A stretch of DNA of 64,000 bases, from the NCBI RefSeq assembly GCF_024746795.1, contig NZ_CP080524.1:2830001-2894000 (forward strand). The letters run 5' to 3'. The stretch is from Mesorhizobium sp. AR10 (GTDB taxonomy: Bacteria > Pseudomonadota > Alphaproteobacteria > Rhizobiales > Rhizobiaceae). The notes below the pieces were generated by a model. The model was not told the origin of the DNA, did not search any database, and saw nothing but the letters and a program-made list of their open reading frames with translations. A program made the translations under genes and the position numbers. Shown here in pieces: positions 2,475 to 53,459 of this stretch (positions are counted from its first letter, which is position 1; each line of letters begins with the position of its first letter).

Positions 2475-3366
2475 AGCGACCTTGGGCGCACCGAAGCGCG
2501 AGGCAGGAGCTGGATTGTCCCGGCTTCTTGGCCGGGTATTCATCTACGGCATCCTGATCCTGTTCGCGCTCTACTATCTGATGCCTTTGTTCGTGATGAT
2601 CGTGACATCGCTCAAGGACATGTCCGAAATCCGGGAAGGCAACCTGATATCGCTGCCGCGCAACCCGACTTTGGAGCCGTGGCGGGTGGCCTGGATGGAG
2701 GCCTGTGTCGGCGTCGACTGTCCGGGAATTAGAGGATTCTACGCCAACACTTTCCTGATGGTGCTGCCGGCGGTGACGATCTCGACGCTGCTTGGATCGT
2801 TGAACGGGTTTGCATTGACCAAGTTCAATTTCCCGGGACATCGTCTTGTCTTCGGCCTGATCATGTTCGGCTGCTTCACGCCGTATCAGGCGATCCTCAT
2901 CCCGATGGCGACGGTGCTCGGAAAGCTAGGGCTTTCAGGCAGCCTGTGGGGCCTGATCCTGATCCACGTCATCTATGGCCTGCCGTTCACCACACTTTTC
3001 TTCCGCAACTATTACGTTTCCATTCCACAGGATCTGGTGAAGGCAGCACGGGTCGACGGAGCCGGCTTCTTCCGGATCTTTTACCACATCCTGCTGCCGA
3101 TCTCGGCGCCGATTGCCATCGTCTCTGTCATCTGGCAGTTCACCAACATCTGGAACGACTTCCTGTTCGGCGCGTCGTTCACTTACGGACGCAACGCGCC
3201 AATCATGGTCGCTCTCAACAACATCGTAAACACGTCGACCGGCGAGCGCCCATACAACGTCCAGATGGCGGCAGCGATCATGGCCGCTCTGCCCACCCTG
3301 ATTATCTACGTCTTTGCCGGGCGCTACTTCATCCGCGGCCTGGTCGCTGGTTCCGTGAAAGGTTAG
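2464..3366 (+). CDS. Sugar ABC transporter permease (MalG/UgpE-like)
   Basis: 300-residue second permease of the same CUT1 importer. Six predicted helices and an EAA loop near residue 191 (LVKAARVDGAGFF). The C-terminus ends in the MalG-type GRYFIRGLVAGSVKG tail that contacts the ATPase. Its ATG overlaps the end of the preceding permease. An insertion around residues 75-85 containing two Cys (ACVGVDCPG) is found in a subgroup of alphaproteobacterial MalG-like permeases. It forms the heterodimeric channel with the 1524-2474 product. Confidence 0.88.
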   Translation: MSAEATLGAPKREAGAGLSRLLGRVFIYGILILFALYYLMPLFVMIVTSLKDMSEIREGNLISLPRNPTLEPWRVAWMEACVGVDCPGIRGFYANTFLMVLPAVTISTLLGSLNGFALTKFNFPGHRLVFGLIMFGCFTPYQAILIPMATVLGKLGLSGSLWGLILIHVIYGLPFTTLFFRNYYVSIPQDLVKAARVDGAGFFRIFYHILLPISAPIAIVSVIWQFTNIWNDFLFGASFTYGRNAPIMVALNNIVNTSTGERPYNVQMAAAIMAALPTLIIYVFAGRYFIRGLVAGSVKG

Positions 3367-3370
3367 TGCC

Positions 3371-4480
3371 ATGTCTTCCCTTACGATCAAGGACATCTCC
3401 AAACGCTTCGGCGGATATCAGGCGCTGGACAACGTAAACATCGAGGCGGACTCCGGCGAATTTCTGGTGCTCCTCGGACCTTCAGGATGCGGAAAATCGA
3501 CGCTGCTGAACATGATCGCGGGATTGGAAACCGTAACCGAGGGGTTGATCCGGATCGATGGGGAAGTGGTGAACGACCGCGATCCGAAAGATCGCGACAT
3601 CGCCATGGTATTCCAGTCCTACGCGCTCTATCCGAGCATGACAGTTCGCGAAAACATCTGCTTCGGCATGAGGGTCAGGAAGGTGCCGAAGGCGCAACAG
3701 GTCGAGTCCGTTGGCCGCGTCGCCAGGATGCTCCAGCTCGAATCATTGCTGGACCGAAGGCCCAGCCAGCTCTCGGGCGGGCAGCGCCAGCGCGTCGCCA
3801 TGGGACGTGCGCTGGTACGCGATCCGAAGGTATTCCTGTTCGACGAGCCGCTTTCCAACCTCGACGCGAAGCTGCGGGTCGAAATGAGGACCGAAATAAA
3901 AAAGCTTCACAAGAAGCTCGGTGTGACGATCGTCTACGTGACGCACGATCAGATCGAAGCGATGACGCTAGCCACCAAGGTCGTCGTCATGCGCCAGGCG
4001 CGAATTCAACAAGTTGGATCGCCGCAGGAGATCTACGATCGACCCCAAAACCTGTATGTCGCAAGCTTCATCGGCTCGCCGCCGATGAACCTCGTTCCCG
4101 GGACATTGCGCGAAGATGGCGGCCAGGTTGCAGTCGAAACCACACTCGAGAGTGGCGCCAAGCTGGTAATTCCAATGGGGCGTGCGACCCCGGCCATGGC
4201 GCCGTACTTCGGCAGCAAGATCATCCTTGGAGCGAGACCGGAAATCATCACGGAACCGGGCATCCATTATGATGGTGCGACCCCATATACATTCGATGCC
4301 AGGGTCGAGGTGGTCGAGCCGACCGGCTCCGACAATCTGGCGATCATCAGTCTGGGCGGGATCGATGCGATCGCACGGCTGCGGCCCGGCGCTGGTGTTG
4401 CCGGGAAGCCGATGTCGTTCAGCATCGACACCAGCAAGGCGTTGCTGTTCGATCCGCAATCCGAACAGCGCATCGCCTGA
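3371..4480 (+). CDS. Sugar ABC transporter ATP-binding protein (UgpC/MsmK/MalK-like)
   Basis: 369 residues. Walker A GPSGCGKST at about 37-45, ABC signature LSGGQRQR near 134, Walker B FLFDEP near 155, and the H-loop His in YVTHDQ near 190, followed by a C-terminal TOBE/regulatory region of about 130 residues. All catalytic motifs are intact. It starts 4 bp after the second permease and is followed after 7 bp by a GMC dehydrogenase that starts at GTG, so it is the third gene of an at least five-gene operon. It energises the CUT1 importer; some MalK-type ATPases serve several permeases. Confidence 0.9.
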   Translation: MSSLTIKDISKRFGGYQALDNVNIEADSGEFLVLLGPSGCGKSTLLNMIAGLETVTEGLIRIDGEVVNDRDPKDRDIAMVFQSYALYPSMTVRENICFGMRVRKVPKAQQVESVGRVARMLQLESLLDRRPSQLSGGQRQRVAMGRALVRDPKVFLFDEPLSNLDAKLRVEMRTEIKKLHKKLGVTIVYVTHDQIEAMTLATKVVVMRQARIQQVGSPQEIYDRPQNLYVASFIGSPPMNLVPGTLREDGGQVAVETTLESGAKLVIPMGRATPAMAPYFGSKIILGARPEIITEPGIHYDGATPYTFDARVEVVEPTGSDNLAIISLGGIDAIARLRPGAGVAGKPMSFSIDTSKALLFDPQSEQRIA

Positions 4481-4487
4481 GGCCGCA

Positions 4488-6056
4488 GTGCGCGAGCAGC
4501 GAGACTTCGATGTGATTGTCGTCGGTAGCGGTGTCGGCGGCGGCGCCACTGCACTGCGGCTGGCGTCCTCCGGCCTCTCCATTGCCCTGGTCGAGCGCGG
4601 GACATTCCTGCCGCGCGAGGCCGAGAATTGGAATGCCGATGAAGTGTTCCGGCGCCAGCGGTATCAGTCACCTGACGAGCGCTGGTCGTTCGATGGCGGC
4701 AAGCCGATCAAGCCCGCGTCCTACTACTTCGTCGGCGGCGCCACCAAGCTGTTTGGCGGCGTGATGATGAGGCTGCGCGAGCGCGATTTCCAGAAGATCG
4801 AGTATCCAGACGGGCTCTCTCCAGCATGGCCGATCGGATACCAGGATCTGGAACCCTACTATGGCCAGGCCGAGCGGCTTTTCGGGGTGCATGGACATCC
4901 CGGTGTCGACCCGACAGAACCGCCCCTGACATCGCAACTGCCGTTCGGCCCGGTCGATCACGACCGGCCGAGCGAGCAATTCATCTACCAGTTGAGGGAC
5001 CGCGGTCTGCGGCCGTTCTCCTTGCCGCTCGTGCTGCAACGTCATTCCGGCGGTGCTTGCGTGCGGTGCGGGACATGCGATGGCTATCCCTGCCTGGTTG
5101 GCGCCAAGTTGGACGCAGAGTTGGCGCTGGTCCGCCCGGCAATGGCGCACCGAAACGTCACCCTGCTCGACAACAGCATGGTAACGCGGCTTGAGCTTGA
5201 TCCAGCAAGCAACAGGATCAGCCGCATTGTCGGGCTTCGGGACGGCCAGGAATTCTCGCTGCGTGCGAAGGTCTTTGTTGTTTCGGCTGGCGCCATCAAT
5301 TCGGCAGCCCTGCTCCTGCGCTCCGTCGGCGGGCGATCGCCGCGCGGCATTGCCAATTCCTCAGGCGTGGTTGGGCGCCACTACATGGCGCACAACTCGT
5401 CGGTGGTGATGGCGGTTGGTTTGAAGAAGACAGGAACGGTCTTTCAGAAGAGCTTCGGCGTCAACGATTTCTACTTCGGCGACGAACACTATCCCCATCC
5501 GATGGGCAATGTGCAGATGATCGGCAAGCTGCATGGCCCTATGCTTGCGCACCGTACGCCGATGTTGCCGCCGCGGTTGCGTCAGGCAATCGCCGACCGC
5601 AGCGTCGATTGGTACCTGCAGTCCGAGGACCTGCCGCATCCCGACAGTCGGGTTTCTGTTAGCGCAGACGGCTCGATTAGGCTCGACAGGAAGGTCACGA
5701 ACCTTCGCTCGCACAAGGAACTGGTCAAGCGGATATGTGGCTTGATGCGTTCCCTCGGCTACCCACTGGTGCTGAGCGAAATGCTGGGAGCTCGCACCAC
5801 ATCCCATCAATGCGGCACGGTCAGGATGGGCAGCGATCCGAAGCAAGCGGCGCTCGATGCATTCTGCCGGACCTATGATCATCCAAATCTGTTCGTCGTC
5901 GACGGCTCCTTCTTTCCGTCTTCGGCGGCGGTCAATCCGTCGCTGACGATCGCAGCCCAGGCCCTGCGCGTCGCAGACCACATGCTTGAGGAAGATTTCG
6001 GAATCGGGCAGGCGGGCGAGCGACCCAAGGTTGCCACCGAAAGGATCGATAGATGA
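4488..6056 (+). CDS. GMC-family FAD-dependent oxidoreductase
   Basis: 522 residues from a GTG start chosen because GAGG lies 6 bp upstream and the Rossmann motif GSGVGGGATALRL falls right after it. The open frame extends further upstream inside the ATPase gene but has no reason to be used. C-terminal GMC signature with the active-site His region SHQCGTVRMGSD and PSLTIAAQALRVADH. A Cys-rich stretch, CVRCGTCDGYPC (CX2CX2CX4C), lies near residue 195; similar Cys motifs occur in membrane-type GMC alcohol and gluconate dehydrogenases. It probably oxidises a hydroxyl of the imported polyol or sugar, passing electrons to a quinone or cytochrome rather than O2 (inference). The stop overlaps the next start (ATGA). 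Confidence 0.85.
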   Translation: MREQRDFDVIVVGSGVGGGATALRLASSGLSIALVERGTFLPREAENWNADEVFRRQRYQSPDERWSFDGGKPIKPASYYFVGGATKLFGGVMMRLRERDFQKIEYPDGLSPAWPIGYQDLEPYYGQAERLFGVHGHPGVDPTEPPLTSQLPFGPVDHDRPSEQFIYQLRDRGLRPFSLPLVLQRHSGGACVRCGTCDGYPCLVGAKLDAELALVRPAMAHRNVTLLDNSMVTRLELDPASNRISRIVGLRDGQEFSLRAKVFVVSAGAINSAALLLRSVGGRSPRGIANSSGVVGRHYMAHNSSVVMAVGLKKTGTVFQKSFGVNDFYFGDEHYPHPMGNVQMIGKLHGPMLAHRTPMLPPRLRQAIADRSVDWYLQSEDLPHPDSRVSVSADGSIRLDRKVTNLRSHKELVKRICGLMRSLGYPLVLSEMLGARTTSHQCGTVRMGSDPKQAALDAFCRTYDHPNLFVVDGSFFPSSAAVNPSLTIAAQALRVADHMLEEDFGIGQAGERPKVATERIDR

Positions 6057-43017: not shown

Positions 43018-43402
43018 CAATCATCTCCCTCACGTTGATCCGAAATCAATAACCCCGGAAGGTTCTGTTTGGTACATGCATCGATCCTGGCGCCTTCCGT
43101 GCCTCACTGCAGCTGAGACGCTGGCAGCCAAACGGCCGCTTTTCGTACTGCTCGCTTCAAACCGGACAGTCCGCTTGCGGCCCAAATGCTGCCGGGCGGC
43201 TATGCGCCGCATGGCAGTCATTCCTGCAGTCCCGTCGATTCACCAAGAGCGGACATCGGGAATGCACAGGCTACAGGCAGCTTTGCGCCGCATGTCGGAA
43301 GTAGAGAAGCGCTTTGCCGTTTCCTGAAAGCAGACATCGCCACTCCGGGTCCTCCAAAGCCTGCCCCCGAATGTTCGTCAATAAATACGCGACCCGCCAG
43401 CG
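43018..43402. other. Intergenic region carrying repeat copy B
   Basis: 385 bp between DUF1761 and the end of the ABC exporter permease gene. Contains the repeat at 43159-43185; no supportable gene. Confidence 0.5.
43159..43185 (+). repeat. Degenerate intergenic repeat, copy B
   Basis: 27-bp box ending GTCCGCTTGCGGCCCAA; one mismatch to copy A over the last 17 bases. The bases that follow (about 20) also resemble those after copy A, so the repeat unit is longer than the core. Confidence 0.5.
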
Positions 43403-44524
43403 TCAGATCCTGCGGAGCGCGTCAGCAGGGAGAAGGCGCGTGGCGCGCCAAGCCGGGTAGAGCGCGCCGAGGGGGCCAGCGATGAATACGAAGATCAGCG
43501 CCTGCGCGATCGACCAGCCTGACAGGTAGGGCACGATCAGCCCCGCCGCGAACTTTGTCTTCGCCGCCATTTCCATTGTAACAGCGCCGAGAATGATCCC
43601 TATAACCCCGCCGGCTGCGCTCATAAACACGCCTTCGATGAGAATGAGCCGAAGAATCCGCCGCGGCGACCAGCCAAGCGCTGCGAGAACTCCGATCTCG
43701 AACGTCCGTTCGTTCACGGCCATCAGAAGTGTATTGGCAACGGCGACAGAGGCCATCATCATGACAACCAGTGAAATTGTCTGGGCAATCGCCTGAAGCA
43801 GATCGAAGATGCGGATGCTGTTGGCAAACTGCTCTGTGTCGCCTACTTCGAACCCCGGTGCGGCCGCGATAAGGTGGGTTCGGGCAACAGCGATGTCGTT
43901 CTGGTCGAGCGGGCGCTTCAACCTCACCTCGAACAAGGTAAACACGTCCTCCCGCGACAGGAGTTGCTGCAGCCCTTCGAGCGGAACGATCGCGCTGTTC
44001 TGGTTCAGCATGGACGAGAACGACGCGATGCCGACGATCTGATAGGGCTGGAACTGGAGCTCGACTGTATCACCGACCCGCTTGTCCAAGGCGCTGGCGA
44101 TCGACTCGCCAAGGATCACGGACCACTGGTCCCCCGGTGCAGGGATTCGCCCCGCCACGAGGTGCATGTCTTTCCACAGAAAGCTGCCGCTCGGCCAGCC
44201 GGCCATGACAATATTTGCGGCGTCGTCAGCGGTGGTGATGTTCAGGAGAATGCCCGACACGGCCTCGACGTTTGGTACCGCGGAAAGCACCGAGCCCAAC
44301 GACCTGGGCACGGTGCTGCTCACTAGGTTGAACGCGCTGCGCTGGCTTACCACCAAATCCGCACCGTTCTCATCGATTCCCGATGCAAACGAGTGCTGGA
44401 CGCCAGCGGTCAGGCCGGTAAGTGCCACAAACCCCGCGACCGCCAAAGCGATGCCGAGAACCGTGAGAAGGGTGCGAAGCGGGCGTGCAATGAGACCGCG
44501 CAAGGGAAGGGTCAGCTCTGTCAT
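43403..44524 (-). CDS. ABC exporter permease (MacB/FtsX family)
   Basis: 373 residues. One N-terminal helix (LLTVLGIALAVAGFVALTG), a large periplasmic MacB-type domain (residues about 45-245) and three C-terminal helices from about 255. The segment MAVNERTFEIGVLAALGWS near residue 285 is the family's conserved cytoplasmic loop. Overlaps the ATPase gene by 4 bp. MacB-type systems extract lipids, lipoproteins or hydrophobic products from the inner-membrane surface. Here it is the last gene of the type III PKS unit, so it may export or flip the phenolic product. Confidence 0.85.
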   Translation of the reverse strand: MTELTLPLRGLIARPLRTLLTVLGIALAVAGFVALTGLTAGVQHSFASGIDENGADLVVSQRSAFNLVSSTVPRSLGSVLSAVPNVEAVSGILLNITTADDAANIVMAGWPSGSFLWKDMHLVAGRIPAPGDQWSVILGESIASALDKRVGDTVELQFQPYQIVGIASFSSMLNQNSAIVPLEGLQQLLSREDVFTLFEVRLKRPLDQNDIAVARTHLIAAAPGFEVGDTEQFANSIRIFDLLQAIAQTISLVVMMMASVAVANTLLMAVNERTFEIGVLAALGWSPRRILRLILIEGVFMSAAGGVIGIILGAVTMEMAAKTKFAAGLIVPYLSGWSIAQALIFVFIAGPLGALYPAWRATRLLPADALRRI

Positions 44525-45234
44525 GGGTTAGCGGATCGCTGCGCAGGCGCAGGCGTCGCCGCCGTTCGGCTGTCCGAACGGATGCGGCCGTCGGTTATCT
44601 CGACGCGCCGCCCGCACAGTGCGGCCACGTCCTCGTCATGCGTCACCACGATCACCGCGGTACCGAACTCGCGATGCACGTTGCCAATGATGTTCATCAC
44701 CGATTGGCTCGTCTGCACGTCGAGGCTTCCTGTCGGCTCGTCGGCAACGAGAAGCTTCGGACGGTTGGCGAGCGCGCGGGCAATTGCAAGCCGCTGGCGC
44801 TCGCCGCCCGAAAGCTCTGCCGGCCGGAGCGTAGCGCGCTCGGCAAGACCGAACCGTGCCAGAAGTTCGAGCGCGCGAACGCGACGCTGGCGCGCTCCGC
44901 CGAGGTTTCCCAACAACGCCACCTCGATGTTCTCGCGCGCCGACAAGGACTGCAGCAGGAAGAAGTTCTGGAAAACGATGCCGATCCTGCTGGCTCGCAC
45001 GGCCGCCCATGCAGCCCTGCCGTTGACGGCTCGTCCTTCAAACCGAATTTCGCCGCGCGTCGGCCGGTCGAGCCCACAGATAAGGTTCAGGATCGTGGAC
45101 TTGCCACTCCCGCTCCGGCCGACAATGGCGACGGTCTCGTCATCCTCGATCGCGAGCGACACATCGTCAACGGCGACGATGCGGCCGCCGTCAAAGTCGC
45201 GGCCGACATTGCTCAATTCGACGAGGGCGGACAT
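44521..45234 (-). CDS. ABC exporter ATP-binding protein (LolD/MacB-type)
   Basis: 237 residues from the ATG at 45234; the frame upstream overlaps the spacer and is not protein-like. Walker A GRSGSGKST near residue 41, signature LSGGERQRL near 142, Walker B LLVADEPTGSLD near 165 and H-loop THDED near 200. The LolD/MacB subfamily has exactly the DEPTG(S/N)LD form seen here. Works with the 43403 permease; 16 bp after the MlaC-like gene. Confidence 0.87.
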   Translation of the reverse strand: MSALVELSNVGRDFDGGRIVAVDDVSLAIEDDETVAIVGRSGSGKSTILNLICGLDRPTRGEIRFEGRAVNGRAAWAAVRASRIGIVFQNFFLLQSLSARENIEVALLGNLGGARQRRVRALELLARFGLAERATLRPAELSGGERQRLAIARALANRPKLLVADEPTGSLDVQTSQSVMNIIGNVHREFGTAVIVVTHDEDVAALCGRRVEITDGRIRSDSRTAATPAPAQRSANP

Positions 45235-45250
45235 GAGCACGGCAGCGGAG

Positions 45251-45868
45251 TCATACCCGGCCTTTCCTGAGATCGGCGACAAGTGCGGGGATCGAGCCGC
45301 CATTGCCGGCGAGCAGCTGGGCAATGCGGTCCCGCTGCTGCACGGTCACGGAGCCGCCGTCGACAAAGACATCGCCGATGCATAGTTGTCCGCGGCAGTG
45401 GCGCACACGCCAGTCCACCGACGTCGGGCCATGGAGCGCCCGGCGGAACTCGCTGCGCACCAGGATGTCGCCGTTGGCCAAAGCCTTTGTGCCGAGCACG
45501 GTGAAATTCTTGTCCTGCGTCCGCTCCAGTTTGTCGGCCAACCTGTGCGCGATAGCATAAAGAAGCGCATCGACCACGGCGGCGCGGTCGTCCGCACTCG
45601 CGCTGCGCCAATGCGTCCCGAGCACGGCTTTGGCGATCCCCTTTCCGTCGAAGGCCGCGGAGATCGAGCGCAGCTGCGCCGCCTCGGCGGGTCCACCATG
45701 CCCAAGCACGATCGCCGCCTGGCGCACAGTCTCAACCAACCTGACCGCATCACTCTGCTCATCGGCGGATGCCGAAAGCGGTGGGGCGCAGGTCGCGACC
45801 AACAGAGGGAAGAGCAACAGCCGGGCCAAGGCTGCCCAGCTTGCGTGCGACCATAGGGCTGTCGTCAT
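45251..45868 (-). CDS. MlaC/Ttg2D-family periplasmic lipid-carrier-like protein
   Basis: 205 residues. Signal peptide (hydrophobic LLLFPLLVATCAPP, cleavage near SASA). The mature part has the MlaC pattern: an N-terminal helical region, then LERTQDKNFTVLGTKALAN and VDWRVRHCRGQLCIGDVFVDG, the strand-turn motif that closes the lipid pocket. The two nearby Cys (HCRGQLC) are unusual for MlaC and could form a disulfide. It lies between a sulfotransferase and a MacB-like ABC pair, which suggests carriage of a lipid product through the periplasm. Confidence 0.78.
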   Translation of the reverse strand: MTTALWSHASWAALARLLLFPLLVATCAPPLSASADEQSDAVRLVETVRQAAIVLGHGGPAEAAQLRSISAAFDGKGIAKAVLGTHWRSASADDRAAVVDALLYAIAHRLADKLERTQDKNFTVLGTKALANGDILVRSEFRRALHGPTSVDWRVRHCRGQLCIGDVFVDGGSVTVQQRDRIAQLLAGNGGSIPALVADLRKGRV

Positions 45869-45877
45869 GATCCCATG

Positions 45878-47095
45878 TCATCCAATGCGCGGTTGGCTGT
45901 CAATATTGAGCGTCCCGGGAGCCTGCGCCGGCGCATGCCCAAAAGCGGCTGCCAGCGGTGCGAGGCGAGCTACGCGCGCTTTCTGCCTTTCCGTCAGGTC
46001 GAGATGGCGGTTGCGCATCTGTTTGCCGAACGTCGCTGCGACCTGCAGCATCCCCTCCTCGCAACCGCGGGAAAATGGCAGGCCGAGTTCGCCGTAGATA
46101 CGCTTCATCTCGCCCACAGGGTCGGCACTGAGATCCTGCAGCCGCACTTCCGCGAGGTCGGCGGCTGGAATCTGGGCTCTGTCCGCCAGATAATGCGTCT
46201 CCGTCGCGAGATATTCCTGAGCGATGATCTCCTCCTGCTCGTCCTCGGGCAGTGGCGACTGCAGGGCGAATGCGCGTTGCAGTTCGCGCGCCAGAAGGAG
46301 GTTGGACCGGAACACCGCTTCCGGCGACCGGGAGATGTGGACAAACTTGGCGCCCGGGAACAGGTCCAACAGGTAGCGGACACGCGCTGTATGGCTCGGC
46401 GACTTGAGCAGAAGTCGCCGCCCGCCTGCAAAGAGAGTGAGCTTCCGGACGAAAGCGAACTGATGAGAGCGCCAGCGGCTCAACTCGTCCGCCGAAAGCC
46501 TGTCGAGATCGTGAAATCGATTGAAGAAGGCTTGCCGGCGGGGAAGCACGGCGCGTCCCGCGAGGATGGACATTCCACCCAGATTGTTCAACGCGAAGTC
46601 ATCCTCCGCTGGCAGCTTGGCGCCCACCGGAACGACTGCGTCGAGGCGCGTCAATGGTAGCAAGGGTACGAACAGGTAGCGCAGGAGAACCCAGCCAAGG
46701 ACGAATGTCTGCGGGGCGAGGACCTGCGGCCAGCTCGGCGATCTCAGGCCCGGGTCGGCTGCCAGCAGGTTCTGCAAGAACGTCGTTCCGGATCGGAAGT
46801 AGCCGAGAACGAACACAGGGGCGTTATCCCGCTCCATCCGGGGAGGACGCAGCCGCAGCCATGCTCCAAGGATCACGCGCTCCGGCAGGGAGGCGATCGT
46901 GTTGATGCCGGAAAGCAGCAGCAGGAGCAACAGGCGCGGCCAGTAGGCAAAGGGGATCTGGCCTTCCGCGCGCCATAAGACCCGCAGTACGGCGTCAAGA
47001 GGCGCCACCCACATAAAGTGCGGATACGGCAAATACGGCACCAACCAGCGGCCTGCGAAAGCTCGGATGCGGTGTTGCACATTGTTCGATGCCAT
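45878..47095 (-). CDS. Sulfotransferase family protein
   Basis: 405 residues from the ATG at 47095, whose first base is shared with the PKS stop codon (TGATG). The frame upstream belongs to the antisense of the PKS. PAPS 5'-phosphosulfate loop VLGYFRSGTTFLQN at 96-109 and the 3'-phosphate motif HISRSPEAVFRSN near 245. A hydrophobic stretch (YWPRLLLLLLLSGINT, 51-66) suggests membrane association, as in lipid sulfotransferases. It would sulfate the PKS product or a downstream lipid using PAPS. The coupling to the PKS gene argues for a shared pathway. Confidence 0.83.
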   Translation of the reverse strand: MASNNVQHRIRAFAGRWLVPYLPYPHFMWVAPLDAVLRVLWRAEGQIPFAYWPRLLLLLLLSGINTIASLPERVILGAWLRLRPPRMERDNAPVFVLGYFRSGTTFLQNLLAADPGLRSPSWPQVLAPQTFVLGWVLLRYLFVPLLPLTRLDAVVPVGAKLPAEDDFALNNLGGMSILAGRAVLPRRQAFFNRFHDLDRLSADELSRWRSHQFAFVRKLTLFAGGRRLLLKSPSHTARVRYLLDLFPGAKFVHISRSPEAVFRSNLLLARELQRAFALQSPLPEDEQEEIIAQEYLATETHYLADRAQIPAADLAEVRLQDLSADPVGEMKRIYGELGLPFSRGCEEGMLQVAATFGKQMRNRHLDLTERQKARVARLAPLAAAFGHAPAQAPGTLNIDSQPRIG

Positions 47096-48165
47096 CAGGC
47101 AGTCCGGAACATCATGGTCTCGGTTGTCAATCCCGGCCCGAACGCCATGCCGCAGCCGAGCAGGCCCGATGGCTCCTTCAGCATTTCGGCCATCACGAAC
47201 ATGACGGTTGCCGACGACATGTTGCCGTATCGCCGCAGCACTTCGCGCGACGCGGCGAGCGCGGTCGGCTCCAGTTTGAGTGCCCGCTCGACCGCGTCGA
47301 GCACGGAGCGGCCGCCGGGATGCACCGCCCACAAATCGACCTCCCTGGCAGGCCTGCCGCCGAGGATGGCCGGATGGTCGTTGCGCAGCATCTCACGCAC
47401 CGCGCCGGGAACCTGGCCGGACAGCACCATGTCGAAGCCGTCGTCGCGGATGTGCCAGCTCATCAGCTCCTTGCGCTCCACTGCCACGATGGCGTGGAAG
47501 CTTTCGAGCAGGATGCCGTACGGTTCGGCCGTGACCAGCGCGGCCGCGCAACCGTCGCCCCACAGGCAGAACGAGATCAGCTTCTCAAGCTCGGCGGCTT
47601 CCCTGAAATGGAGCGTGCACAATTCGATGTTGACGATCAGCACGCGGGCTTTCGGGTCGGAGCGCACGATATGGCGTGACAGCTTCAAGGCGTTGATTGC
47701 GGCATAGCATCCCATGAAGCCGACGATGGTCCGCTCGACAGACGTTGCCAGGCCGCATCGCTGCACCAGCTCGAGGTCGATGCCAGGCGCCGAAAAGCCA
47801 GTGCAGCTCGTCACGATCAAATGCGTGATCAGCGAGCGGTCGTCGTCCGCCAGAAGCTTGTCGACAGCCTTTTGCGCCAGCTCCGGCGCGGCGGCCTCGT
47901 ACATCTCCATACGGATTGCGGTGCTGGCGAACGAGCCCCTGACCGAGGTGCCGGCGCGGTCAATTGCCCCACCGCGCGGATCGTCGGCGGGCGCAAAGCA
48001 GGAATAGCGATGTTCGATCCCGGCGAGAGCGACCATTCGTTCGAAGAGCGTAAGGCGCTGGGCATCGTCTTCCAGCAGCAAAGCTCCATAGCGGAGGTAG
48101 AACTGATGCACGTCGTGTTCTGGTACTGACGTGGCAATGCGGTTCAGATGCGCTTGAGGGGACAA
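47095..48165 (-). CDS. Type III polyketide synthase (chalcone/stilbene synthase family)
   Basis: 356 residues from a TTG at 48165; GGAG lies about 5 bp upstream and later starts would remove the conserved N-terminal strand. Complete catalytic triad: Cys153 in GFMGCYAA, His282 in VHPGGRS, Asn315 in RRYGNMSS. The C-terminal GFGPG-type loop reads GMAFGPGLTTE. The bacterial group includes alkylresorcinol and alkylpyrone synthases, which extend long acyl starters with malonyl-CoA. Followed directly by a sulfotransferase, and divergent from a methyltransferase-flavoprotein pair. Confidence 0.9.
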   Translation of the reverse strand: MSPQAHLNRIATSVPEHDVHQFYLRYGALLLEDDAQRLTLFERMVALAGIEHRYSCFAPADDPRGGAIDRAGTSVRGSFASTAIRMEMYEAAAPELAQKAVDKLLADDDRSLITHLIVTSCTGFSAPGIDLELVQRCGLATSVERTIVGFMGCYAAINALKLSRHIVRSDPKARVLIVNIELCTLHFREAAELEKLISFCLWGDGCAAALVTAEPYGILLESFHAIVAVERKELMSWHIRDDGFDMVLSGQVPGAVREMLRNDHPAILGGRPAREVDLWAVHPGGRSVLDAVERALKLEPTALAASREVLRRYGNMSSATVMFVMAEMLKEPSGLLGCGMAFGPGLTTETMMFRTA

Positions 48166-48206
48166 AATTGCTCCGACAATGAGCCCAATCGGGTCTCATA
48201 AGAGGT

Positions 48207-48232
48207 CTAGGAATTGGGGAAGCGTTTCCTAG
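48207..48232. promoter_or_regulatory. Inverted repeat in the divergent PKS promoter region
   Basis: CTAGGAA (48207-48213) and TTCCTAG (48226-48232) with a 12-nt spacer, in the 291-bp divergent region between the PKS gene and the methyltransferase gene. Symmetry and spacing fit a dimeric regulator site. No regulator gene is within the cluster; nothing else in this spacer looks like a gene. Confidence 0.4.
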
Positions 48233-48456
48233 GGCAAACGTCGGCATAAGGTATTTTATTGCGGGGCGCCGATATTTCTCATTAGCAAACTGTGATACCA
48301 GCCTCCAATCTTGTATGAAAGGGACCGAGGTTCGGCTTCGCCATCCGGATTGAGTTCACATGCGAGTTCCGCCATGAACCGCGCGGAGCCATGAAGGTAC
48401 GACCGAATTCTATTTGCCGGATTGCCGGCTGAAGCCCTAGATTTCCGATCCATCGC

Positions 48457-49161
48457 ATGACCGACATAAACATCCGGCATCTGGAGCCAGAGCTCCTCGA
48501 CGACCTCCCGGCCGATGATCCCCGTGCGATCGCATCCCGTCGTGATCTCGTTCGCATCAATGCATTGATGTTCCAGGCCAGGTTCATGGCATCGCTCTTG
48601 CGGGCGAACGTGCAAACGCTGCCGCTGCGCATCCTCGAAATAGGCGCCGGTGACGGAAAGTTCATGCTGACAGTGGCGCGGCTGATGGCGCGGCGTTGGC
48701 CCAACGTCGAGATCGTTATGGTCGACAGGATCGGCCTGATCGGAAAGGATGTGTGCAACGCTTTCGCCAAATTTGGTTGGCGGGCGCAACCCGTAACCGC
48801 CGATATATTCGATTGGACAGGAGACAGGCCCTTCGATCTTGTCTGCGCCAACCTTATCCTCCATCATTTCGACGATACACGCCTCCTGGAGCTGTTTTCC
48901 CGGATCATGGCGATGGCCCCCATGCTCGTCGCTACGGAGCCATTCAGGGCCAAGGTGCCACTTGTCGCGACACGGTTGCTGCCATTGATCGGCGCCTGCG
49001 CGGTGACACTGAACGACGCGGCGCAAAGTGTCCGCGCCGGTTTTCGCGGCACGGAACTTTCACAATTGTGGCAACTGTCAGGGGGAACGCCTGTGATTGA
49101 GGGCCGCCGGGGCCTGTTCACTCACGCTTTTGTCGGTGCCAGCGTGCCCGGCGCGAGATGA
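48457..49161 (+). CDS. SAM-dependent methyltransferase
   Basis: 234 residues, class I Rossmann fold. SAM-binding motif I ILEIGAGDGKFML near residue 60, acidic motif II VMVDR near 88, and motif IV FDLVCANLILHHFDD near 130. First gene of the plus-strand arm of the PKS cluster; 4-bp overlap with the flavoprotein gene. In streptomycete phenolic-lipid pathways (srsA-srsB-srsC) the equivalent enzyme methylates the resorcinol made by the PKS. By context it is an O- or C-methyltransferase for the PKS product. Confidence 0.84.
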   Translation: MTDINIRHLEPELLDDLPADDPRAIASRRDLVRINALMFQARFMASLLRANVQTLPLRILEIGAGDGKFMLTVARLMARRWPNVEIVMVDRIGLIGKDVCNAFAKFGWRAQPVTADIFDWTGDRPFDLVCANLILHHFDDTRLLELFSRIMAMAPMLVATEPFRAKVPLVATRLLPLIGACAVTLNDAAQSVRAGFRGTELSQLWQLSGGTPVIEGRRGLFTHAFVGASVPGAR

Positions 49162-50330
49162 TGCACGACGCAATTGTCATCGGAGCTGGCCCCGCCGGCA
49201 GCTCTACCGCCATCGCGTTGGCCCAACATGGCTGGTCGGTGGCAATGGTGGAGAAGGTGGTGTTCCCTCGCCGAAAGGTCTGCGGCGAATTCATGTCAGG
49301 GACCAGTCTTGCCTTGCTTGACCGGTTGGGCGTCGGCGAGATCTGGCGCGCGGAAGCCGGCCCGGAAGTACGTCGCGTTGGGTTCTTTTCGGGCGATGTC
49401 TCGGCGCAGGCGCGAATGCCGATCGCCAGGACGGGTCTCGGCCGCGCGCTCGGCCGCGACCGTTTGGATTACATCCTCTTGCAGGCCGCCGAACGCGCGG
49501 GTGTCGAAATTCTCCAGCCTTGCAAGGCCGTCGCCATTCATCAGCGCGATGATTTGCAATTTGTGACCGTGGAGGCGGGCCAGCAACAAAAGGTTTTGAG
49601 CGCACCTGTCATAATTGCCGCGCACGGCTCCTGGGAAGCCGGGAAACTCCCAAGCCAGCTTGAAAGAACAAACCGACCCTCCGACCTTTTCGGATTCAAG
49701 GCGCATTTTACCGGCGCCGCGCTGCCGCCCGACTTGATGCCGCTGCTGGTATTCCCGGGCGGCTATGGTGGAATGGTAACGGCGGACCGCGGCCGGGTTT
49801 CGATTTCCTGCTGTATCCGCAGGGATGTTCTATCCGGGCTGCGCGAGCGCTTTGGAAACATTGCGGCTGCCGATGCACTGTGGCGCCACGTCCTGGCTTC
49901 GTGCCAAGGCGTAGGGACTGTGCTGGCCGGTGCCGAACTGGATGGCCCGTGGCTCGCCGCGGGACCGATTCATCCCGGTATTCGAGCTGGCTATGATCAG
50001 GGCATCTTCCGCGTCGGCAACATCGCAGGCGAGTCACACCCTGTCATCGCGGAAGGCATTTCGATGGCGTTGCAATCCGGCTGGCTCCTTGCGAGAGAAC
50101 TAATCGCATCGGGCAAAGGTCGCGAGGGCCACGACGCCGCCGGACGTCGCTACGAACGCGCGTGGCGTCGGCAATTCTCGGCTCGTCTGCGTGCCGCGGC
50201 CTTGATTGCCCGAATAGCGCTTGGGCCCGGAGGCGGGGCGGCCATGCGTGTCGTGATCAATATTTTTCCAGCGGCTTTAACGCTTGGCGCTCGACTGAGT
50301 GGAAAGACCCAGCGTGTGCCGGGCTTTTGA
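49158..50330 (+). CDS. FAD-dependent oxidoreductase (geranylgeranyl-reductase/monooxygenase-like)
   Basis: 390 residues. FAD dinucleotide fold IGAGPAGSSTAIALAQ at residues 8-23, the Pro-Arg-rich FPRRKVCGEFMS motif near 38 shared by geranylgeranyl reductases and some aromatic hydroxylases, and the second FAD motif VGNIAGESHPVIAEGIS near 290. C-terminal hydrophobic region suggests membrane contact. Overlaps the methyltransferase gene (ATGA). Analogy with SrsC suggests ring hydroxylation toward a quinone; chain reduction is the alternative. Confidence 0.83.
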   Translation: MMHDAIVIGAGPAGSSTAIALAQHGWSVAMVEKVVFPRRKVCGEFMSGTSLALLDRLGVGEIWRAEAGPEVRRVGFFSGDVSAQARMPIARTGLGRALGRDRLDYILLQAAERAGVEILQPCKAVAIHQRDDLQFVTVEAGQQQKVLSAPVIIAAHGSWEAGKLPSQLERTNRPSDLFGFKAHFTGAALPPDLMPLLVFPGGYGGMVTADRGRVSISCCIRRDVLSGLRERFGNIAAADALWRHVLASCQGVGTVLAGAELDGPWLAAGPIHPGIRAGYDQGIFRVGNIAGESHPVIAEGISMALQSGWLLARELIASGKGREGHDAAGRRYERAWRRQFSARLRAAALIARIALGPGGGAAMRVVINIFPAALTLGARLSGKTQRVPGF

Positions 50331-50713
50331 CGTCAAGTAGCGCGGCTCGTCGACCAACTGAATGGGGCGCTGGGGTGACGTAGAGGGTAACGTTAGCCGC
50401 CCTTGCTGACGTATGAGATTCGGCCCGGTGCTAATCGCCGGCTCTGACCGAAGGGCAGATGGATTTCCGCTTCCGCAAAGGTTTGCCGAAACCCGCCCTT
50501 CCGCTCTCGGCCCAATTCCCGCCGCTGCGCCATCACAACGGCCGCTCGGCACCGCGAATTGACCTTCAGCCTGTCGATATGAAGGTCCTGGGTGGATATG
50601 TCCGCCGACGGTCCATTCAGAGGCAAGCCACGCCGGCTTGAGCTGCCGCCGTCGCCGCGACCTCGGGGAAGTGCAAAGGTGCATCCCGCGTCCCGATGCT
50701 TGCCGGTTGCACC
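50331..50713. other. Convergent intergenic region carrying repeat copy C
   Basis: 383 bp between the convergent flavoprotein and iminopeptidase genes, separating the PKS cluster from the LuxR-solo locus. Holds the repeat at 50489-50515; no gene seen. Confidence 0.5.
50489..50515 (+). repeat. Degenerate intergenic repeat, copy C
   Basis: 27-bp box ending TTCCGCTCTCGGCCCAA; two mismatches to copy A over the last 17 bases. The first ten bases resemble copy B. Confidence 0.45.
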
Positions 50714-51640
50714 TCAGTCCTGCGTCTTGAGGAAGTCCGAGACAGTGCGCATGCAGAGCTCCCGCTCCTCGACATGCGGCATGTGGCTCGAATGTTCGAA
50801 CAGTACCCATCGAATACTCGGAACGCGCTCCACATAGGGTCGAACTACCTCGCGCGTGGCCTCGTCGTGGCGGCCCGAAATCAGCAGTGTCGGCACCGCG
50901 ATGTCGGGCAGCCGGTCCTCGATGGTCCAGTCCTTCATCGTACCGATGACGTGGAATTCGGTAGGGCCGTTCATGTTGCGGTAGACCGTGTTGTCCTCGT
51001 CCATGATGGCGAAGGTCCGCGCCACCTCCGGCGGCCATGGCACGACCCGGCAGACATGTCGGTCGTAGAACACGCGCGAGGCTGCTACATATTCAGGATC
51101 GGTGATCGTGCCGGCGGCCTCGTGCCGTGTGAGTGTATCCTGGACGTCGGCGGGCAGTTCACGGCGCAGCCGATTGGCCTCGGACACCCAGGTGCGCATG
51201 TTGGCCGGCGAGTTGGCGATCACCAGGGCCTTGAGGCCCTCCGGCCGGCGCACGGCATGCTCGGCGCCGAGCATGCCGCCCCAGGACTGGCCAAGAAAGG
51301 CGTAGCGCTGCTCGATCCCGAGCGACCGCAACAGCGTATCGAGCTCGTCCAGGAACAGGTCGACGGTCCAGAAGTCTGGTCCCTTCTCCGGCAGCCGAGT
51401 GGAGTTGCCATTTCCGAGCTGGTCGTAGTGTATCACGGCCCGGCCATCGAGAGCCGCGATGTCCTTGAAGGTGTCGACATAGTCGTAGGTACAGCCTGGC
51501 CCCCCATGTGCGACCACCAGGGGGAGCCTCGGCGAGCCTAGGTTGCCGGCGATGCGGTACCAGATGCGGTGGCCGCGAAACGCGACATGGCCTTCCTTCG
51601 CTTCCGTCACGGCGGCTCTCCTCGTTGCGGTGGGCATCAT
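50714..51640 (-). CDS. pip: Proline iminopeptidase-family hydrolase (first copy)
   Basis: 308 residues from 51640 (two adjacent ATG codons, 51640 and 51637). Peptidase S33 alpha/beta hydrolase: oxyanion motif [10 protein letters not shown] near residue 42, nucleophile [11 protein letters not shown] near 120, Asp in ISGRHDEA and His in SSHMPHVEE. Encoded 50 bp downstream of the LuxR-type gene on the same strand. A second copy sits on the other side of the regulator (52569). In PipR/OryR loci this gene is the regulator's main target and may release or process a peptide-like signal. Confidence 0.85.
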
Positions 51641-51690
51641 AGGGGGAGCCTTCCCGAGGCGGCAGCTATGAAAAGTAATAGGTCTCTCCG

Positions 51691-52470
51691 TCAGTTGTCG
51701 AGCAGGCGGAAATGCGCGGCGCGAACGACGGCCTGCGTGCGGTTCCTGGCGCCCAGCTTCCTGGCGGCGGCCGTGAGGTGCATGACGACCGTGGGAACCG
51801 AGCGCCCGATGACGCGTGAGATCTCCTTGGCAGAGAGGCCATGTGCCGAATGGCGGAGACACTCGCGCTCACGCTCGGTCAGCGCCGGCAGTCGCGGACT
51901 GAGGGCCGAGCGGTTGTAGTAGGCATAGGCCGCGTCATGGAAGACATGCGATAGCAGGCCGAACTGGGCGATGCTTCCGAGATCGCGCGGAACATCTTGT
52001 CCGGCGCCGAAATGTACCCCGGTGACCGTGGCATAGCCGCCGCGCGGCATATGAATGGGGATCGTCACGCCTCGGGTGAGACCGCGCTCTCGCAGATATC
52101 GCGCCACCGGCTCCGTCGTCTCGTTGAGTAGCTCGCGTATTTCCGTGTCGGCTCCATCGTCGTAGTTCCAGGCGAAAGGCCTGGAGCTACGCGCAGCGAC
52201 GAGTTGCACTGGATCGATGCGGAAGTAGCCGCGATCGCACCAATAATCCTGCATGTCGTCATCGATGTTGCGCAGCTTGAGCATTGACGGGATCATGATC
52301 GAGCCGTCGAGGTCGTAAGGCACGGGCGTATAGTCGTAGATCAAGGCCTCGTAGCCGAGTCCGCGCATCGCTACGAACGCCTCGTCGATGCAACTGTCCA
52401 GTGTGTCATGGCGAGCGAAACGCCGCCTCATCGTGGTGATTTCGTCCAGCATGAACTCTTCCGCCGACAC
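51691..52470 (-). CDS. LuxR-family solo regulator, plant-associated (PipR/OryR-type)
   Basis: 259 residues from a GTG start; the in-frame ATG at 52452 may be the real start because GGGAGG abuts the GTG. Autoinducer-binding domain, then a C-terminal GerE helix-turn-helix ([20 protein letters not shown]). In the ligand pocket the two AHL-defining aromatics are replaced by Met73 and Trp77 ([12 protein letters not shown]), while Asp86, Pro87 and Trp101 are kept. This is the diagnostic pattern of plant-associated LuxR solos that answer plant compounds instead of AHLs. No luxI gene is nearby. Two iminopeptidase genes and a peptide ABC importer flank it. Confidence 0.9.
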
Positions 52471-52568
52471 CCTCCCGGACCCACCCTATCACTTCTTATA
52501 GCTAACGCACTCACAACGTTTCGCTTAAAATATGAGCATGCCTAAAAGCTGTGCATTCGGAGCGAATC

Positions 52569-53459
52569 ATGTGGCGTGAGATGGCGGCCGACGATCGCAT
52601 CGAGGTAAACGTCGACGGCTTTAACGTCGTTGCCTACAGCTTTGGCTCTGGCAGCGAGACGGTGTTCTGCCTCAACGGCGGGCCTGGCCTGCCCTGCGAC
52701 TACCTTCGCGAATCACACTCCTGCCTGGTAGACCACGGATACAGGGTCGTGGCGTTCGACCAGCTTGGCACCGGCGCCTCCGACCGGCCGACGGACACCT
52801 CGTTGTGGACTATCGCGCGCTACGTCGAGGAGACCGAGACGGTTCGCAAGACGCTGGGGCTCGGCAAGGTCCACATGCTGGGTCATTCCTGGGGCGGCTG
52901 GCTGGCGATCGACTATGCGCTTGCCTACCAGGAGAACCTGCAGACCTTGATCCTCGAGGATACCGTCGCCGACATGCCGCATCTTGTCCTGGAACTGGAA
53001 CGCCTGCGCGCCTCGCTGGGACCCGAGACCGTATCGATGATGCAGAAGCATGAGGCGCAGGGGACCTACGATCATCCGGAATACATGGCGGCGGTGACGA
53101 TCCTCAACTACCGCCATGTCTGCCGCCTGCTCGAATGGCCGGCGCCGGTGCGCCGCTCGCTCGACGACTGGAACATGGGACCCTACGCGACCATGCAAGG
53201 TCCGAACGAGTTTCTCTACATCGGCAATCTCAAGGACTGGAACCGGGTGCCCGACCTGCCCAGGATCAAGGTGCCGGTGCTGATCACGCATGGCGAACAC
53301 GACGAACTGACGCCAGCCTGTGGTCTGCGCATGAAACTTGGGCTGCCGCAGTCGGAGTTGCACATCATCCCGAATGCGAGTCACATGCCCTTCTACGAGA
53401 ACCCGGCTGCATACTATCCGATCCTTTCGGGGTTCCTCTCGCGCAACAAGGCAGGCTGA
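52569..53459 (+). CDS. pip: Proline iminopeptidase-family hydrolase (second copy)
   Basis: 296 residues from the ATG at 52569, with GGAG 6 bp upstream; a GTG at 52551 lies before that RBS and is less likely. S33 motifs: NGGPGLPCDY near residue 38, nucleophile GHSWGGWLAID near 105, Asp in THGEHDEL and His in NASHMPFYE. Clearly related to the 50714 protein but divergent, so an old duplication or separate acquisition. Transcribed divergently from the LuxR gene and leading into the peptide ABC operon, so it is probably cotranscribed with the importer. Confidence 0.87.
   Translation: MWREMAADDRIEVNVDGFNVVAYSFGSGSETVFCLNGGPGLPCDYLRESHSCLVDHGYRVVAFDQLGTGASDRPTDTSLWTIARYVEETETVRKTLGLGKVHMLGHSWGGWLAIDYALAYQENLQTLILEDTVADMPHLVLELERLRASLGPETVSMMQKHEAQGTYDHPEYMAAVTILNYRHVCRLLEWPAPVRRSLDDWNMGPYATMQGPNEFLYIGNLKDWNRVPDLPRIKVPVLITHGEHDELTPACGLRMKLGLPQSELHIIPNASHMPFYENPAAYYPILSGFLSRNKAG

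Follow-up and report, generated by a model that had tools for sequence, protein, structure and literature searches.

A seven-gene block in Mesorhizobium that joins a type III polyketide synthase trio to a sulfotransferase–MlaC–ABC cassette: a candidate route for a sulfated phenolic lipid

Background

Three-gene operons for a type III polyketide synthase (PKS), a methyltransferase and an FAD oxidoreductase are described, in the available excerpts, for hierridin (hidABC), for planctomycetes and as pkqABC (PMC8086630, PMC10896814, PMC9927152). A type III PKS located beside a sulfotransferase is found in the adp cluster of Streptomyces davaonensis, for which sulfated alkylresorcinols (sulfatostatins) are the proven products. 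The adp cluster is a five-gene operon with PAPS genes of its own and, as far as the excerpted description goes, without methyltransferase, FAD, MlaC or ABC genes (PMC12135136). In Mycobacterium tuberculosis, the arrangement rv1371-rv1372(pks18)-rv1373 likewise places a sulfotransferase after a type III PKS, and a role involving negatively charged lipids is suggested by the authors in the excerpted text (PMC13141999).

The means by which Gram-negative bacteria move lipids from one of their membranes to the other are under active debate. In the LolCDE-LolA system a type VII ABC transporter with a separate ATPase works with a soluble periplasmic acceptor for lipidated cargo, while the transporter paired with MlaC is of type VIII and type VII systems have other partners, according to the excerpt of PMC10094684.

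Here we analysed a block of seven genes within a stretch of 64,000 nucleotides from Mesorhizobium sp. AR10 (from here: the window). The original prediction had proposed that this block makes and moves a sulfated, methylated phenolic lipid, and that no bacterial cluster of this composition had been described. The latter statement was too strong, since the combination of a type III PKS with a sulfotransferase has been published (PMC12135136), also as pks18-rv1373 (PMC13141999), as the excerpts of both papers state; a sulfated phenolic lipid from this locus would therefore be a new variant.

Methods

Domain calls are Pfam matches above curated cut-offs, for which the sulfotransferase and the ATPase were scanned from their longest possible starts. 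Whole-genome searches were made in samples of 199, 297, 146, 385, 297, 28, 9 and 385 genomes with varied E-value cut-offs. Block edges were mapped from blastn pieces longer than 300 bp at E ≤ 1e-20. The seven-gene loci L026-L030 were taken to be the same as the relatives L163, L160, L164, L167 and L168 and were counted once.

Results

Layout of the block

All seven open reading frames were present at 43403..50330, and the genes, coordinates and domain calls of the original prediction were confirmed by the ORF check and by Pfam:

43403..44524, minus strand: ABC permease, 373 aa (MacB_PCD PF12704, 79.4 bits, and FtsX PF02687, 54.8 bits)
44521..45234, minus strand: ABC ATPase, LolD/MacB-like, 237 aa if the start is the ATG at 45234 (ABC_tran)
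45251..45868, minus strand: MlaC-family periplasmic lipid carrier, 205 aa (MlaC PF05494, 73.7 bits)
45878..47095, minus strand: PAPS-dependent-type sulfotransferase, 405 aa (Sulfotransfer_3 PF13469, 98.7 bits)
47095..48165, minus strand: type III PKS, 356 aa (Chal_sti_synt_N/C)
48166..48456, no strand: putative divergent promoter region between the PKS and methyltransferase genes (conserved stretches in an alignment of 12 genomes)
48457..49161, plus strand: class I SAM methyltransferase, 234 aa (Methyltransf_23/25, PF13489/PF13649, 30 bits vs 27)
49158..50330, plus strand: FAD-dependent oxidoreductase of the geranylgeranyl-reductase/aromatic-hydroxylase superfamily, 390 aa (FAD_binding_3 PF01494, 56.4 bits)

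There are overlaps of 4 nt each between the ATPase gene and the permease start and between the FAD gene and the methyltransferase stop. The predicted TGATG coupling was also found, with the PKS stop (47097-47095) and the sulfotransferase ATG (47095-47093) having one base in common; this overlap is present in 11 of the 12 genomes that carry the block, the exception being L161. PAPS genes, as well as MacA-like, TolC-like and outer-membrane receiver genes, were absent from the seven by Pfam.

Conservation and mobility in Mesorhizobium

The block MlaC was detected in 12 of 146 sampled Mesorhizobium genomes (E ≤ 1e-5). The same 12 genomes possess a PKS at least 90% identical to that of the window, while the PKS matches of the other 66 PKS-bearing genomes reach at most 74% identity. 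Seven genes in unchanged order were found in all 11 relatives. Among the 12 genomes, median dN/dS was 0.13-0.22 for each of the seven genes, all of which are, judged by these ratios, under purifying selection. Given these values and the presence of the block in 11 other Mesorhizobium genomes, the arrangement is not due to chance.

DNA similarity to the window stops within about 125 bp or less of the block edges in all 11 relatives. Eight flank contexts were distinguished on the permease side and seven on the FAD side, judged on flanks of 4.2-8 kb, so that local gene content differs but chromosomal positions not necessarily. Because the block is under purifying selection and intact in 12/12 genomes and about eight flanking contexts, the seven genes are taken to be mobile as one unit, and this co-movement together with the intact linkage supports a joint function. 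There were no tRNA genes at the block edges (three tRNAs occur in 2 of 11 loci, away from the edges), and no transposase or integrase was found among 10 ORFs near the block in six relatives, one of these ORFs having no Pfam match.

Two modules with separate histories

The PKS, methyltransferase and FAD genes form a widespread operon. A scan of genome contigs gave 102 confirmed loci, of which the best 80 were kept, and 75 more distant loci were fetched; the methyltransferase was found in 73 of these collinear loci and the FAD gene in 69, three of the six FAD misses lying on truncated contigs. A match to the sulfotransferase, MlaC or permease was obtained in none of the 75 (E ≤ 1e-8, within the fetched DNA), and 69 have the trio without the cassette, three of them with an FAD gene merely 27-29% identical. 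The distant loci are collinear, whereas the block is divergent both in the window and in the 11 relatives, with the PKS gene inverted relative to the methyltransferase and FAD genes. The 12 block PKSs group in a single clade (100/100), which has PKSs of collinear operons as its sister and lies nested among them. The catalytic residues Cys153, His282 and Asn315 stand at exactly the predicted positions and are invariant in 87/87 aligned PKSs. ArsC, the partner in the ArsB Trp281/ArsC Gly284 product switch, was absent among the 60 PDB matches listed for the PKS. The FAD enzyme scored 94 bits against TIGR02032, under the cut-off of 158.8. The PKS by itself occurs on plasmids (35 records, the best being a plasmid of Mesorhizobium sp. 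INR15 at 63.8%), and a second type III PKS locus in the genome consists of a PKS with an ICMT methyltransferase.

The sulfotransferase-MlaC-ATPase-permease cassette recurs in genome G1069, which belongs to another family of the order (34, 44, 60 and 61% identity, respectively) and gave no type III PKS match at E ≤ 1e-10. In this cassette without a PKS, the sulfotransferase can presumably serve another substrate, and 34% identity need not mean a shared one. MlaC, ATPase and permease recur in three further genomes, the MlaC match of G1023 being weak (24.8 bits vs 26); the ATPase-permease relative in G441 (L187) has no adjoining MlaC match. The cassette as a known plasmid-borne element was rejected on the results from the plasmid collection, which held no match to the block MlaC, 17 records for the sulfotransferase (none covering 80%, all below 60% identity), and for the permease one distant Granulicella record (E ≤ 1e-25), with none for the G1000 permease.

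The original prediction had suggested a search for the same layout in other Rhizobiales. Beyond one Mesorhizobium clade it was not found, and a Rhizobiales-wide feature was rejected on the 75 distant loci. It had also counted homologues not linked to the PKS as contrary evidence, and outside the clade such homologues do exist in the form of cassette-free PKS loci and the PKS-free cassette of G1069. It is from these two observations that the link between PKS and cassette is deduced to be a derived fusion in one clade; on the sequences compared, the block is a mosaic of two pre-existing modules.

The sulfotransferase

Residues R101/G103/T104/T105 and R256/S264 are invariant across 32 sequences. 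The best PDB folds for the predicted structure are the mycobacterial STF9 and STF1, with TM-scores of 0.54-0.63. Among 385 genomes from the class, the window's own sequence was the only one returned at E ≤ 1e-50, which points to a narrow distribution; of 297 genomes from the family, five others have sulfotransferases with 31-38% identity. A general tie of such sulfotransferases to a PKS was rejected, as the neighbourhoods of these five (L112-L116) had no PKS, MlaC or permease matches (E ≤ 1e-6); 30-32% ATPase matches in two of these neighbourhoods were all that resembled the block. Two near-complete APS-kinase domains are encoded elsewhere in the genome, which supports a possible supply of PAPS from outside the block.

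The MlaC-like carrier and the ABC pair

The MlaC-like protein has a hydrophobic N-terminus resembling a signal peptide and is the sole PF05494 match in the genome (E ≤ 0.001). Its predicted model has a mean pLDDT of 87, and all 11 PDB matches (E ≤ 0.001) are MlaC, Ttg2D, toluene-tolerance or phospholipid-binding proteins, several of them lipid-bound. The fold matches thus back the MlaC-like and sulfotransferase identities originally assigned. Assignment to HpnM was rejected (58.1 vs a curated cut-off of 160.1 bits).

The single permease gene of the block encodes a member of the type VII ABC superfamily with four hydrophobic regions. Its best NCBIfam match is lolCE at 66.9 bits, far under the cut-off of 362.45, and the ATPase scores 198-200 bits against LolD-type models, under cut-offs of 307.75-360; a true LolCDE was therefore rejected, both proteins falling under the curated LolC/E and LolD cut-offs. 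A true MacB was rejected as well, with 46.9 bits for the permease vs a cut-off of 966 and a separate ATPase gene. Of the predicted "MacB-like exporter", the MacB_PCD and FtsX domains stand, but membership in the MacB family does not, and the block has no MacA- or TolC-like gene. The block contains no type VIII partner of the MlaE/MlaD type, its permease being MacB_PCD plus FtsX.

Discussion

We give a probability of about 0.5 to the reading that the two fused modules act as one unit, by which a long-chain phenolic lipid would be made, sulfated and then moved to the MlaC-like carrier. Starting from a fatty acyl group, the PKS would add malonyl units and cyclise the chain to an alkylresorcinol (or alkylpyrone), the methyltransferase would add a methyl group to this product, and the FAD enzyme would oxidise or hydroxylate the ring. 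At the inner membrane, the sulfotransferase would then transfer sulfate from PAPS to a phenolic OH. The amphiphilic sulfated lipid would next be extracted from that membrane by the Lol-like ABC pair and taken over the periplasm by the MlaC-like protein, with the outer membrane as the probable destination. We infer every chemical step, as well as the identity of the substrate, the direction of transport and the destination. Sulfation of a PKS-type product by the cassette is plausible because a published co-clustered sulfotransferase sulfates a type III PKS phenolic lipid, as reported in the excerpt of PMC12135136.

A rather unlikely alternative is that two functions lie side by side, the trio giving an unsulfated phenolic lipid or quinone and the cassette sulfating and moving a different envelope lipid, so that the fusion would serve co-regulation or co-transfer only. 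The cassette alone in G1069 and the trio alone in the distant loci agree with such a separation, but the TGATG overlap that couples the sulfotransferase to the PKS and the survival of the joint block across its flanking contexts argue against it. We consider it quite improbable that, in place of a structural membrane lipid, the block yields a redox shuttle or carrier in the form of a sulfated polyketide quinone or hydroquinone, or else a signal molecule of the sulfated pyrone type. In actinomycetes, the excerpt of PMC9927152 ties the PKS-methyltransferase-oxidoreductase trio to respiratory polyketide quinones, and the superfamily of the FAD enzyme comprises reductases and hydroxylases; sulfation and a periplasmic carrier, however, are more in keeping with an amphiphile that is exported than with a quinone of the inner membrane.

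We give the lowest credence to an inward or protective role of MlaC and the ABC pair, in which they would take back from the envelope, or recycle, either the phenolic lipid itself or phospholipids that it displaces. Canonical MlaC is described as working mainly in the retrograde direction, with anterograde transport also reported, and the sole PF05494 protein of the genome might hold a general role in lipid homeostasis; the type VII transporters MacB and LolCDE, on the other hand, act outward from the inner membrane (PMC10094684, excerpt), and a MlaE/MlaD-type partner is missing from the block.

Extending the reading of a joint sulfated-lipid unit, we tentatively regard it as possible that MlaC forms, with a LolD-like ATPase and one LolC-like type VII permease, a separate, recurring lipid-trafficking machine, with a Lol-style extractor loading a Mla-style carrier, which is partnered with differing lipid-making enzymes by lineage. 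The Mesorhizobium fusion would then be a dedicated route for a sulfated phenolic lipid to the outer membrane or surface. The block is compact and accessory, one half of it appears to make a lipid and the other to move it, and it holds the genome's only PF05494 match; it thus offers a clean knockout system for the direction and cargo of transport. The surface chemistry of root-nodule bacteria matters for symbiosis, and if the cargo is a sulfated phenolic lipid, members of this genus of soil and root nodules would bear a charged lipid on their surface.

Searches of openly licensed PMC papers, which give weak evidence, returned no paper on MlaC with an FtsX-like permease, none on a type III PKS with methyltransferase and geranylgeranyl reductase, none (in the excerpts obtained) on this locus among the type III PKS literature on Mesorhizobium, general envelope papers (excerpts) for MlaC or LolCDE with phenolic lipids, and a single glycan review for sulfated outer-membrane lipids or sulfotransferases in Mesorhizobium.

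The original prediction had likened the trio to srsABC of Streptomyces griseus. PKS, methyltransferase and flavoprotein are indeed alike at the level of enzyme class, but gene content fits the hierridin, planctomycete and pkq operons at least equally well. SrsB and BpsB, which we take to be ICMT-type methyltransferases, may place the srsAB/bpsAB composition closer to the second type III PKS locus of this genome than to the block. The hierridin, planctomycete and pkqABC trios have the same three enzyme classes and, likened by gene content, the collinear order of our distant loci; compared with hidABC and pkqABC, the window has an inverted PKS gene and four extra genes after it. In adp, as in the block, the PKS is directly followed by the sulfotransferase, whereas the block has no PAPS genes (likened by gene content; PMC12135136, excerpt). 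The rv1371-rv1373 arrangement has a predicted desaturase in place of the methyltransferase and FAD genes, and its excerpted description mentions no MlaC/ABC pair (PMC13141999). LolCDE-LolA is a match in the way it works, but the block has one permease gene and a MlaC-family carrier in the place of LolA. With the Mla pathway (MlaC with MlaFEDB) the block has the MlaC-family carrier and its fold in common, while the partner there is the type VIII MlaE/MlaD and here a type VII FtsX/MacB_PCD permease, following the classification in the excerpt of PMC10094684. It is this pairing of MlaC with a type VII ABC transporter, rather than that of a type III PKS with a sulfotransferase, that is the less familiar part of the locus.

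Gene organization

The AR10 genome comprises two contigs (6.88 Mb), and the window is located at 2.83–2.89 Mb of contig C2 (6.13 Mb). All seven ORFs were found in the window, and each scored above the curated cut-off for one or more Pfam families. The features considered here are, in window positions:

43403–50330, minus strand: genes for permease, ATPase, MlaC-like protein, sulfotransferase and type III PKS; plus strand: genes for methyltransferase and FAD enzyme
48166–48456: divergent promoter region
50714–53459: two hydrolase genes on either side of one ORF

The minus-strand operon runs from the PKS through the sulfotransferase, MlaC-like protein and ATPase to the permease. The PKS and sulfotransferase genes overlap in TGATG, 9 nt separate the sulfotransferase gene from that of the MlaC-like protein, and the ATPase and permease genes overlap by 4 nt; the two plus-strand genes overlap as well. 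The PKS catalytic triad Cys153, His282 and Asn315 was unchanged in all 87 aligned homologues. ORFs, Pfam assignments, TGATG junction and triad thus bear out the seven genes as given in the original prediction.

The divergent promoter region contains several invariant or nearly invariant stretches across 12 genomes, e.g. around GCAAACTGTGATA and ATTTTATTGC, possibly a regulator site. At 50714–53459, a proline-iminopeptidase-family hydrolase (above the TIGR01250 cut-off) and a second, similar-looking hydrolase enclose an ORF resembling a LuxR-type regulator, and peptide-type ABC importer genes come next; the second hydrolase, the LuxR-type ORF and the importer genes were called by eye.

Two architectures of the PKS locus

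Close PKS relatives were collected in a one-genome-per-species scan, from which the best 80 of 102 confirmed loci were compared. By PKS, the named members nearest to the window are Mesorhizobium neociceri and M. loti strains (96–92%). Five of the 80 (L026–L030; PKS 90–96%) contain the full seven genes in the divergent layout of the window, and the other 75 (L031–L105; PKS 59–74%) a collinear PKS-methyltransferase-FAD operon. Within these 75, a methyltransferase match was present in 73 and an FAD match in 69, three of the latter at 27–29% identity only and two cut by contig ends. Three of the six loci without FAD match lie on early-ending contigs; L094, L101 and L102 are full length. The last two represent Mesorhizobium soli, whose PKS copies are nearly identical to each other and 59% identical to that of the window, with neither methyltransferase nor FAD match nearby.

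Sulfotransferase, MlaC and permease matches at E ≤ 1e-8 were found in none of the 75 collinear-type loci. Scattered ATPase matches at 28–38% identity occurred in 16 of them, as is expected of generic ABC ATPases. Linkage of the sulfotransferase and ABC/MlaC genes to the PKS, on which the original prediction had made its reading depend, hence does not extend beyond a narrow clade (0/75 loci).

Across 146 Mesorhizobium genomes, the PKS was present in 78 (E ≤ 1e-40) and the window-type MlaC in 12 (E ≤ 1e-5). These 12 are exactly the genomes with a PKS identity of at least 90%, the remaining PKS matches reaching at most 74%. In a maximum likelihood tree of 88 PKSs, with the second PKS of AR10 as distant outgroup, the 12 seven-gene PKSs grouped as a single clade (100/100), whose sister was the main clade of Mesorhizobium collinear operons (100/98); M. 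albiziae, M. camelthorni and Devosia, further lineages with the collinear operon, lay outside. Therefore, the trio operon (PKS, methyltransferase, FAD enzyme) is the older arrangement, and its fusion with the cassette of sulfotransferase, MlaC-like protein, ATPase and permease, together with the rearrangement, is derived. Most simply, this fusion would have arisen once.

In protein searches of metagenomes, the matches listed include PKS relatives of 77–92% identity whose longest contigs are as long as those of sulfotransferase and MlaC relatives in four instances (11,902, 29,873, 26,017 and 40,125 bases) and as those of sulfotransferase relatives in another (11,028 bases). These equal lengths suggest that the linkage may span a wider range than in cultured genomes.

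Mobility and selection

The layout search proposed with the original prediction returned the seven genes, complete and in order, in 11/11 relatives whose surroundings were compared, and the cassette in 0/75 more distant loci. In each of the 11, the stretch similar to the window at the DNA level (blastn pieces >300 bp) started at 43,278–43,402 and ended at 50,331–50,393. Flanks of 4.2–8 kb on each side, compared in 12 genomes, fell into 8 groups without mutual similarity on the permease side and into 7 groups on the FAD side, not counting a piece of ~550–690 bp common to five loci (L160, L161, L164, L165 and L166; blastn), with a GreA/GreB-like ORF in the two that were scanned. This GreA/GreB C-terminal-domain ORF lies beside the FAD end (L161 4359–4841, L160 4319–5017); the flank in the window gave no match. 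In L158, a sulfatase-domain (PF00884) gene (3262–5208) adjoins the FAD end, in a flank common to L167 and L168 (blastn); it is possibly a desulfating partner, or a coincidence.

Median dN/dS values (66 pairs each) were 0.127 for the permease, 0.128 for the ATPase, 0.214 for MlaC, 0.221 for the sulfotransferase, 0.160 for the PKS, 0.199 for the methyltransferase and 0.134 for the FAD enzyme. Pairwise dS was correlated from gene to gene within the block (0.65–0.88), and the TGATG overlap was kept in 11 of 12 block genomes, being absent from L161. Taken together, the intact block, its diverse flanks, dN/dS, dS correlation and TGATG argue strongly for a shared function of the seven genes that is under selection.

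The cassette without the PKS

Searching 297 genomes of the order with the permease yielded three other carriers at E ≤ 1e-30. One of these, G1069 from another family, carries all four cassette genes in the order and strand of the window: sulfotransferase (34%), MlaC (44%), ATPase (60%) and permease (61%). They lie between an upstream neighbour that looks by eye like a sugar ABC importer and a downstream xylose-isomerase-like TIM-barrel gene. PKS, methyltransferase and FAD matches were absent from the surrounding 20 kb, and the whole genome gave zero type III PKS matches at E ≤ 1e-10. The other two carriers, G1023 and G1000 from two more families, have MlaC-ATPase-permease with no sulfotransferase match in 20 kb; the MlaC of G1023 is a short ORF scoring 24.8 bits, just below the 26-bit cut-off, and G1000 has a 62% identical PKS on a different contig. 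In a 28-genome search with two matching genomes, one being G1069, the second was G1103 (same family, other genus), where the MlaC-ATPase-permease set again lacks a sulfotransferase match.

When 385 class genomes were searched with a profile (E ≤ 1e-60), one further ATPase-permease pair was found, in G441 (L187 7555–12361). An oleate-hydratase-family (MCRA) gene lies upstream of it and a cytochrome P450 gene on its opposite side, and MlaC matches were absent; this neighbourhood is another fatty-acid context for the transporter. An MlaC-family gene lies immediately upstream in 4 of 5 fetched extra-genus relatives, one of the four being a weak match. The sulfotransferase search of the 385 class genomes (E ≤ 1e-50) had the window's own protein as sole match. 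By these searches, the transport module is uncommon, not unique. At L181 8693–15706, MlaC-ATPase-permease has a lycopene-cyclase-like gene and one for a large AMP-binding/reductase protein in its vicinity, and this transporter possibly has a different lipid cargo.

Individual proteins

The model of the MlaC-like protein has a mean pLDDT of 87, and all 11 matches to solved structures at E ≤ 0.001 were MlaC/Ttg2D/toluene-tolerance or phospholipid-binding proteins, several of them lipid-bound. It is the only PF05494 match of the genome (E ≤ 0.001). Assignment as HpnM was rejected, the protein scoring below the HpnM cut-off. Permease and ATPase fall within the MacB/Lol (type VII) superfamily, and curated subfamily cut-offs were not reached among the matches listed.

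The sulfotransferase model (mean pLDDT 82) has the mycobacterial STF9 and STF1 as nearest folds, at modest TM-scores of 0.54–0.63. Its RxGTT and R/S positions, which we take to be the PAPS-binding motifs, were unchanged in 32 homologues. APS kinase domains are present elsewhere in the genome, so PAPS supply in AR10 is plausible. The automatic source name 'omega-hydroxy-beta-dihydromenaquinone-9 sulfotransferase' on 5 of 120 homologues listed may hint at lipid-quinone substrates. Three distant metagenome homologues (P0122, P0126, P0158) measure about 530–545 aa; at the C-terminus they are extended by roughly 130 residues that look hydrophobic by eye.

The FAD enzyme matched best FAD_binding_3 (Pfam) and the geranylgeranyl-reductase superfamily (NCBIfam, under its cut-off). 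Its FAD site, where GD is usual, has GN in all 12 members of the seven-gene clade and in 64 of 67 collinear-operon proteins of alignable length from the 75 loci. A second type III PKS of AR10 lies outside the window, about 70 kb from the block (L025 7875–9511; C2 about 2,946,874–2,948,510), and has an ICMT-family methyltransferase (PF04140) as its immediate downstream neighbour, the two forming a bpsAB-like pair.

Interpretation and comparison with known systems

On the best reading, a phenolic-lipid trio was joined with a portable cassette for sulfation and transport, and this derived fusion travels among Mesorhizobium as a single unit. The probability that the block produces and transports a sulfated PKS lipid is roughly 0.5. 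Tentatively, the MlaC-type VII pairing could be a trafficking system in its own right that is used more widely. The sulfated, methylated phenolic lipid of the original prediction, with MlaC-like carrier and MacB-like exporter, is plausible; the precedents below had escaped this prediction, and the unlinked homologues that it had named as refuting do occur outside a narrow clade.

Operons of T3PKS, methyltransferase and FAD oxidoreductase are described in cyanobacteria for hierridins (PMC8086630), in actinomycetes as pkqABC (PMC9927152) and in Planctomycetota for 58 of 96 T3PKS genes, the PKSs within these planctomycete operons being described as alkylresorcinol synthases (PMC10896814). T3PKS and sulfotransferase are paired in adp, with sulfated alkylresorcinols proven (PMC12135136), and in pks18-rv1373 (PMC13141999). 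Thus, each half of the chemistry has a precedent, and the view that no such bacterial cluster had been described is too strong as regards the T3PKS-sulfotransferase pair. For the union of trio, sulfotransferase, MlaC and type VII ABC pair, no description was found in the CC-licensed literature searched. In a review, MlaC goes with the type VIII MlaFEDB, and LolCDE and MacB are type VII (PMC10094684); compared with that scheme, the block, joining MlaC to a type VII pair, crosses the type VII/VIII line.
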